Below, one piece after another: positions 3,981 through 7,669 of a DNA stretch of 64,000 bases. The stretch lies in assembly GCF_014042165.1 (NCBI RefSeq), contig NZ_JACDZE010000001.1:1014595-1078594 (forward strand), written 5' to 3'. Each line of letters opens with the position of its first letter. Within the stretch, counting starts at the first letter, position 1. This stretch comes from Moheibacter lacus (lineage in GTDB: Bacteria; Bacteroidota; Bacteroidia; Flavobacteriales; Weeksellaceae). The position numbers were made by a program, and so were the translations under genes. The notes beneath the pieces were generated by a model, which was not told the DNA's origin, did no database searches, and saw nothing but the letters and a program-made list of their open reading frames with translations.

Positions 3981-4017
3981 CACAACTTTTGTTTTTCCTC
4001 CGAAAACAAATCATCAT

Positions 4018-4185
4018 TTCATTACAACCGGCAGGTCTCCTGGCTTGCTCTTTTCCCTTCCCATACGCCTACGGCGCACAGTGGTTTGTAGATTGATTAT
4101 GAGCTTACAGTTGCGGGGACAGCTCCGGGATTTCACCGGATTCCCTTTTCATCCGCCTGCGGCGGACACCGATTTGGCTGCAAAT
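4018..4185 (-). promoter_or_regulatory. Cobalamin (B12) riboswitch
   Basis: Read on the minus strand, the leader has the conserved cobalamin core: GGGAATCCGGTGAAATCCGG, then AGCTGTCCCCGCAACTGTAA (the B12 box), and the 3' part GCCAGGAGACCTGCC close to the receptor start. Two GC-rich peripheral hairpins (TCCGCC-GCA-GGCGGA and GCGCCGTAGGCGT) fit the variable arms. It should repress the downstream receptor and propeller genes when adenosylcobalamin or another corrinoid is plentiful. Edges are approximate. Confidence 0.95.
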
Positions 4186-4190
4186 ATAAA

Positions 4191-7214: not shown

Positions 7215-7289
7215 GGGAGCATAGCTCAGTTGGTTCAGAGCATCTGCCTTACAAGCAGAGGGTCGGGGGTTCGAATCCCTCTGCTCCCA
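7215..7289 (+). tRNA. tRNA-Val (anticodon TAC)
   Basis: Cloverleaf by eye: acceptor GGGAGCA (7215-7221) pairs with TGCTCCC (7282-7288). The anticodon stem TCTGC/GCAGA encloses loop CTTACAA, giving anticodon TAC. The T arm is GGGGG-TTCGAAT-CCCTC, and the discriminator is A at 7289. CCA is not encoded. A terminator hairpin follows directly. Confidence 0.95.
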
Positions 7290-7290
7290 C

Positions 7291-7416
7291 AAAACAAAAT
7301 GCTTTACATGTTTCATGTGAAGCATTTTTTATTTTCGAATTAGTCAATGGTTTACTTTTGTAAAAATTTGGAAATAAAAAAGGATTCAAAAACAAGGTTT
7401 TAAAGCATTTTGTTTT
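7291..7416. repeat. 16-bp inverted repeat in first tRNA-tail spacer
   Basis: AAAACAAAATGCTTTA (7291-7306) is exactly reverse-complementary to 7401-7416. The left arm starts right after the tRNA 3' end and overlaps the first terminator. Confidence 0.85.
7299..7331 (+). terminator. tRNA-Val terminator (unit 1)
   Basis: A 12-bp stem ATGCTTTACATG/CATGTGAAGCAT with a 3-nt loop and a run of T. Confidence 0.85.
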
Positions 7417-7462
7417 AATTCAACTCTTAACGGGATCAAAGGAGTTAATCCCTCTGCTCCCA

Positions 7463-7584
7463 CAACCCAAAACGCCTCGCACATCCGTGCGGGGCGTTTT
7501 TATTTTTAGAAAACGCAAAAACTTGTTTTTGTGTTTGAATGAAATAAAAAGGACAATGACGCAGTCTTGAGGCGTTTTGGGTTG
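7463..7584. repeat. 16-bp inverted repeat in second tRNA-tail spacer
   Basis: CAACCCAAAACGCCTC (7463-7478) is exactly reverse-complementary to 7569-7584. Its sequence is unrelated to the first spacer's arms but it sits in the same place relative to the tRNA-tail copy. Confidence 0.85.
7469..7506 (+). terminator. Terminator hairpin (unit 2)
   Basis: AAAACGCCTCGCAC, loop ATCC, then GTGCGGGGCGTTTT with one G-T pair and a T-rich tail. It follows tRNA-tail copy 2. Confidence 0.8.
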
Positions 7585-7640
7585 CATAATCCTTTTTATT
7601 TTGGGATCAACGGCGTTAATCCCTCTGCTCCCACAAAGAA

Positions 7641-7669
7641 AACCTCAGATGAAAATCGGAGGCTTTTTT
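7641..7669 (+). terminator. Terminator hairpin (unit 3)
   Basis: CCTCAGAT, GAAA tetraloop, ATCGGAGG (one A-G mismatch), then C and six T. It follows tRNA-tail copy 3. Confidence 0.75.

Follow-up and report, generated by a model that had tools for sequence, protein, structure and literature searches.

Why is the 3' end of an intact tRNA gene repeated twice directly behind the gene itself? This question is raised by the window, i.e., the whole 64-kb stretch of Moheibacter lacus DNA that we analysed. Here an intact tRNA-Val gene (anticodon TAC) occupies 7215-7290 (ARAGORN; Rfam RF00005, 76 bits) on the forward strand, and the tail features behind it share this strand. The 19-mer AATCCCTCTGCTCCCACAA at 7274-7292 is made up of the final 17 bases of tRNA-Val plus the next two. 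It occurs again at 7447-7465 (tail copy 2) and 7618-7636 (tail copy 3), with spacings of 173 and 171 bp, and a pair of exact 19-mers inside 400 bp is not chance. Both spacers represent a single structured unit, about 172 bp long and repeated in tandem, which runs in the order of a terminator hairpin, an imperfect palindrome, a T-arm with a replaced T-loop (GGGATCAA.GG.GTTAATCCC) and the tRNA tail.

Unit 1 extends from 7291 to 7465. The left arm of its outer stem (7291-7306) is also the left side of the stem of an intrinsic terminator (7296-7334; stem 7296-7328, followed by a T-rich run), and the right arm lies at 7401-7416. Between these arms, an inner stem encloses the core (7325-7381), where TTTTTTATTT at 7325-7334 pairs with AAATAAAAAA at 7372-7381. 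The altered T-arm GGGATCAAAGGAGTTAATCCC, in which the TTCG of the T-loop is replaced, follows at 7432-7452 and leads into tail copy 2. Unit 2 (7463-7636) repeats this plan with outer-stem arms at 7463-7478 and 7569-7584, an intrinsic terminator at 7469-7507 (stem 7469-7500, again with a T-rich run), the altered T-arm GGGATCAACGGCGTTAATCCC at 7603-7623 and tail copy 3. The intact T-arm of tRNA-Val reads GGGGG-TTCGAAT-CCCTC, and those of the two units read GGG-ATCAAAGGAGTTAAT-CCC and GGG-ATCAACGGCGTTAAT-CCC. The tail copies thus begin inside the T-loop, whose remaining bases are exchanged for sequence that lengthens the hairpin formed with the tail, and this accounts for the odd stretch that precedes copies 2 and 3.

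Both units are strongly folded, with z scores against shuffles of -5.25 (unit 1) and -5.41 (unit 2). Each spacer is an imperfect palindrome over its whole length, since unit 1 matches its own reverse complement at 72% over 126 nt and unit 2 at 69% over 122 nt. The 16-mers of the outer stems are inverted exactly about 110 bp apart, and none of 200 shuffles of either unit gives a comparable stem. The arms are not alike between the units, and fixed terminal inverted repeats are absent.

Most of what a sequence-only reading had claimed for this locus is borne out by these data. The tail does recur twice at about 172-bp spacing, with 19 bp at 7447 and 7618; the stretch GGGATCAA.GG.GTT that copies 2 and 3 were said to share upstream is present and can now be identified as the T-loop-exchanged T-arm; and the 16-bp inverted repeats after copies 1 and 2 are exact. 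Two claims need amendment. A strong terminator had been placed after each copy, and a strict terminator scan agrees for copies 1 and 2 and not for copy 3, where a terminator-like hairpin (7643-7669) with a mismatched stem (7643-7662) and a T6 run was read by eye. The spacers had also been described as alike in architecture and not in sequence. The architecture stands, and alignment with relatives reveals that their sequence is weakly common and their structure strongly common.

The units carry no recognizable coding content. No match to PF01541 (GIY-YIG) was found in the region of the tRNA-Val units, where the ORFs are short and spurious, and neither an integrase nor an island lies between the direct repeats, whose spacing of 171-173 bp holds no ORF. 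The spacers contain no tRNA 5' half or D-arm, and the copies start at the T-arm. When a phage collection was searched with the locus, the match was confined to the tRNA part. A search of the genome for the altered T-arm, allowing three mismatches, returned both tRNA-Val copies only, because this stretch varies with the tRNA.

The units do have relatives. Unit 1 resembles units at tRNA-Arg tails in a genome of another family (G082) and a stretch directly behind tRNA-Trp in G060, and unit 2 resembles a stretch that follows tRNA-Pro(GGG) at a contig end of congener G005. Seven aligned units have in common the terminator, a stem of a T-run with an A-run, the core hairpin, the outer stem and the altered T-arm. 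From these seven, which include both tRNA-Val units, we built a covariance model (R1) and ran it over 296 genomes of the order. Since they are part of the model, the matches of unit 1 (G000:C1:1021882-1022057, 134 bits) and unit 2 (7461-7634 of the window, 136.6 bits) are to be read accordingly. R1 has matches in 143 of the 296 genomes, most of them below about 45 bits and left out of the counts that follow, and relatives are present in other Flavobacteriales families. Sixteen of the 26 new high-scoring loci have their start no more than 10 nt from the 3' end of a tRNA (Arg-TCT, Arg-ACG, Val, Tyr, Ser, Pro, Phe and Leu), three further loci lie in tandem arrays behind a tRNA and seven have no tRNA nearby, though R1, like A1, was built from tRNA-linked members and may favour linked matches. 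A tail copy of 10-19 nt is found in 13 of the 26 matches on re-reading.

The structure of the family is supported by compensatory changes. In an alignment of 21 units (A4), both sides are changed in 14 of 21 pairs, a count that is inflated by the fitting of the alignment to the model, and the covariation score is 0.591 versus 0.198 when shuffled and at most 0.118 when slid. The outer stem, which is not part of R1, scores at least 10 in 21 of 27 units, where 1.8 are expected from shuffles. The median fold z of family units is -5.8, and the 5' strand of the altered T-arm tracks the tail of each tRNA. The tRNA-Val units follow this family plan throughout, from the terminator, T-run stem, core hairpin and outer stem to the altered T-arm and tail. 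The unit matches nothing in Rfam and would suit a new family entry.

A tRNA scan of the M. lacus genome shows that tRNA-Val is one host among several. Tail copies lie behind Gly(TCC), Arg(TCT), Phe and two Met genes, and behind Asp also. Tail units or a GIY-YIG motif occur at eight of the 31 tRNAs examined, a count that includes one false motif match (Ala) and leaves out Arg(TCG), which has a short tail copy directly behind it. A single unit of the tRNA-Val type (fold z -5.7) follows Arg(TCT), and its spacer is identical to that of a congener at 154 of 156 positions (L008/L193), with flanks at about 72-83%. At 98.7% between species, this non-coding unit is about as conserved as the tRNA that it follows and far above its flanks. 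Two other forms are found in the same genome. Behind one Met gene (L018, 1501-2610; G000:C1:518212 onward) there are about ten tandem hairpin-only units of roughly 118 bp, and hairpin-only units of 100 bp follow Gly; in both, part of the tRNA is replaced by GC-rich hairpins, e.g., TCCGCCGAGGCGGA or CCCCCGATGCGTCGGGG. The internal hairpins at L018 vary from unit to unit, and the changes affect both strands (CCGACGTAGCCG, CCGCCGCGGCGG, CCGCCGAGGCGG). Behind Asp, the other Met (L016) and Phe, units of about 345-375 bp hold a single-domain GIY-YIG ORF, with four units at Asp, two at Met and two at Phe. The four at Asp are in tandem (L056 1371-2950; G000:C1:870839 onward; about 375 bp each), and each is followed by a tRNA-Asp copy in which two segments are replaced by hairpins.

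Occupancy of the tRNA-Val site differs among congeners. M. lacus has the two non-coding units, congener G005 a truncated GIY-YIG remnant, G003 a tail unit at the start of a contig and G002 none. According to the sequence-only reading, plain pseudogene decay would be indicated if the units were absent elsewhere and relatives had intact tRNA genes at copies 2 and 3. The opposite was found, since the units recur and none of the congeners examined has an intact tRNA gene at either position. The same reading had doubted simple decay of a tRNA array and proposed a tRNA-borrowing small element. Both views gain from the recurrence of the unit in the M. lacus genome, behind Arg(TCT) and twice behind tRNA-Ser fragments, and at many tRNAs of relatives.

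The coding units belong to a wide set. In relatives, small GIY-YIG ORFs lie mostly 20-120 bp behind tRNA genes, tRNA-Val in G062 among them. A profile from twelve such proteins, in which the catalytic Y, R, H and E columns are invariant, has matches in 188 of 296 Bacteroidota genomes, and these frequently stand in tandem. Among 70 loci that were read, which are the top of the ranking and not a random sample, 63 are linked to a tRNA, 55 of them behind it on the same strand and 8 mirrored in front of it. Several of the seven unlinked loci are at contig ends or cut by the locus boundary. Mirrored loci (L309, L315, L318, L333) have a 5' partial tRNA copy with a hairpin for the anticodon arm, then the GIY-YIG ORF and then the intact tRNA. 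In the partial tRNA copies of coding units, a palindrome usually replaces the anticodon arm or T-loop. In the protein tree, sequences group by tRNA isotype (31 changes versus 60.4 when shuffled; 0 of 200 shuffles), and the Met and Asp clades each hold several families. Small GIY-YIG proteins of another type (L110, L113, L124, L128, L131, L135, L136, L138) have no adjoining tRNA. Pattern matching for GIY-YIG in congeners was partly spurious, and the candidates at tRNA-Ala(GGC) (L019, L237) and tRNA-Met (L250) proved on reading to have none.

The coding and non-coding kinds are linked by an array in G087 (L325/L393), where a GIY-YIG unit is followed by a unit of the tRNA-Val type behind tRNA-Pro. 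Other cargo is seen in G016 (L176 1494-2300). There, tRNA-Val and a terminator-bearing tail copy flank a nucleotidyltransferase gene (PF18765) and a HepT-like gene that contains an internal stop. The cassette is of the same type as those above, and its gene pair resembles a toxin-antitoxin system. Several GIY-YIG arrays are in single-contig assemblies, e.g., G385 and G262, which speaks against misassembly. Many draft contigs were also seen to end in or beside these tRNA arrays (L244, L296, L303, L320, L326, L333, L334), and draft genomes probably understate their number. In the literature that we searched, where coverage of subscription journals is thin, neither tRNA-linked GIY-YIG arrays nor the structured units are described.

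The anatomy of the units, their tRNA linkage, the covariation and the differing occupancy in congeners are direct observations, and the best reading of the tRNA-Val feature is that of two tandem non-coding elements of about 172 bp that live at tRNA 3' ends. We consider it probable that they belong to a selfish family of tRNA-tail units, which would spread when the 3' end of a tRNA gene undergoes recombination or break repair. With the help of tRNA homology, a unit would insert into the 3' portion of such a gene or next to it, and its own terminator would keep the tRNA intact with a proper end. The leftover tRNA copy, crippled by replacement of the T-loop or anticodon arm, would no longer be a tRNA or, if a GIY-YIG enzyme cuts tRNA genes, a cleavage target. 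Non-coding units may be non-autonomous and moved by nucleases or integrases that act at the tRNA tail, and arrays may grow through recombination between tails. Since the tRNA-Val units have no ORF, any nuclease would act in trans. Against this picture, no insertion or excision event was observed, and the intact tRNA still has whatever site the enzyme might cut, which simple homing must explain.

Known mobile elements resemble the units in part. As in free-standing GIY-YIG homing elements, a single-domain ORF whose catalytic residues are invariant is present in the sister units, which are site-specific by lineage and sit in a conserved RNA gene. Unlike in those elements, the host gene is intact beside a crippled partial copy rather than interrupted, the tRNA-Val units have no ORF and cleavage by the sister units is putative. 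MITE-like non-autonomous transposons are likewise short, non-coding, palindromic and multi-copy; however, the ends of our units vary in sequence, a fixed terminal repeat is absent and the target is mostly the tRNA 3' end.

A broader form of the selfish-unit reading takes in the whole phylum, and we put it forward tentatively, as a real possibility that falls somewhat short of probable. Here, coding and non-coding units of Bacteroidota would together be selfish tRNA-tail cassettes, mobile DNA with essential tRNA genes as its permanent homes and docking sites, possibly of a cleave-and-rescue type. Both kinds would leave an intact tRNA and bring a terminator and a hairpin-crippled tRNA copy, and the coding cassettes would encode tRNA-isotype-specific GIY-YIG nucleases. 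If these nucleases cut tRNA genes, the cassettes would be small natural drive elements in essential genes of bacteria.

Alternatively, the tails could be remnants of attachment sites of tRNA-integrating islands or phages, with each integration adding a tail plus a terminator, and repeated accretion and deletion leaving the tails in tandem. The crossover made by tyrosine recombinases falls in the T-loop or anticodon loop, and in our units, as in tRNA-targeting integrative elements with such att sites, the tRNA 3' end is directly repeated from one of these loops. Two more structured units of the M. lacus genome (C8:201554 and C8:214679; L402 3500-3800 and 16600-16860) are preceded only by a tRNA-Ser 3' fragment. 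The intact tRNA-Ser(TGA) lies about 100 kb from them (L403 843-2548) with a tyrosine-recombinase gene behind it (Phage_integrase, 50 bits), which suggests stacked integrated islands. Repeated tRNA-Arg 3' halves in G082 (L346, L359, L360, L361) each have one or two units of the tRNA-Val type behind them, as if several integrated elements bore a unit at their end. The units thus also seem to lie at the borders of integrated islands for which this tail is the attachment site, and the earlier idea of integration scars is supported to this extent. It falls short in that units of about 80-400 bp lack an integrase, those at tRNA-Val included, and have a crippled T-arm upstream of each tail and a secondary structure that is conserved across families, which is more than a scar would have. 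The usual cargo of sister units is also a GIY-YIG ORF and not an integrase. We regard remnants of this kind as possible, though unlikely.

The closest known system is that of the 178-bp repeats at E. coli tyrT/tyrV, with RtT RNA (Rfam RF00391); to our knowledge, these repeats look like an isolated curiosity. The two systems are alike in plan: a tRNA gene is followed by units of about 175 bp in tandem, each with a folded spacer and, at its close, about 20 bp that copy the 3' end of the tRNA exactly, and the T-loop is replaced with GGAT...TAATCC kept. In the E. coli locus we read tails every 178 bp with this exchange in the T-loop, and RF00391 found 4 RtT copies there as a positive control. By comparison, RF00391 has no match to the tRNA-Val units even at E 10, R1 has none to the E. 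coli locus, and neither covariance model recognises the other. In the low-threshold Rfam scan (E up to 10), RtT was absent and all matches besides tRNA were below the gathering score of every family. By the covariance model, the tRNA-Val units do not belong to RtT. The tyrT units are also near-identical repeats at one locus, whereas units of the tRNA-Val type are diverged and at many tRNAs, and the terminator-first palindrome with its core hairpin is specific to the latter. With similarly built units at many tRNAs over an order, a covarying fold and nuclease sisters over a phylum, the tyrT puzzle can be placed in a family with a taxonomic range, and its mechanism becomes testable.

This likeness raises the alternative that the units encode regulatory or tRNA-trailer RNAs of the host, like rtT, which would be freed from tRNA transcripts running past the first terminator, fold and act in trans or on tRNA processing. 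We keep it in consideration because the Arg unit is about as conserved as its own tRNA, which could reflect selection for function rather than recent transfer, and the strong covarying fold fits it as well. However, a terminator opens each unit, so that most would be transcribed only by read-through. The family is found at many tRNAs and is gained or lost between congeners, and its sister units hold nuclease ORFs. Overall, we judge a host RNA of this kind to be rather unlikely.

A natural cleave-and-rescue system, in which the GIY-YIG enzyme destroys unprotected tRNA genes, the element supplies an intact tRNA and the hairpin copy is the broken old gene, appears doubtful to us. It would account for the layouts read, the mirrored 5' layout included, in which each unit pairs one intact tRNA with one crippled copy, and for the isotype specificity of the nuclease lineages. 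Yet cleavage by these enzymes is putative, the intact tRNA keeps the canonical sequence and the scheme does not apply directly to the ORF-less tRNA-Val units.

That a tRNA-Val array has simply decayed, that the repeats arose by chance or that the assembly is wrong can be practically dismissed: tandem repeats near tRNA genes do misassemble easily and several draft contigs end at such arrays, but the same anatomy is found in dozens of independent genomes, including the single-contig assemblies above, with compensatory base changes and with no tRNA 5' remnants in the spacers, and we rejected pseudogene decay and a one-off assembly error on the R1 relatives, the tRNA linkage and the covariation. 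Over the whole window, the Rfam scan returned tRNA and a cobalamin riboswitch only, the latter at 4013-4188 on the reverse strand with 111 bits.
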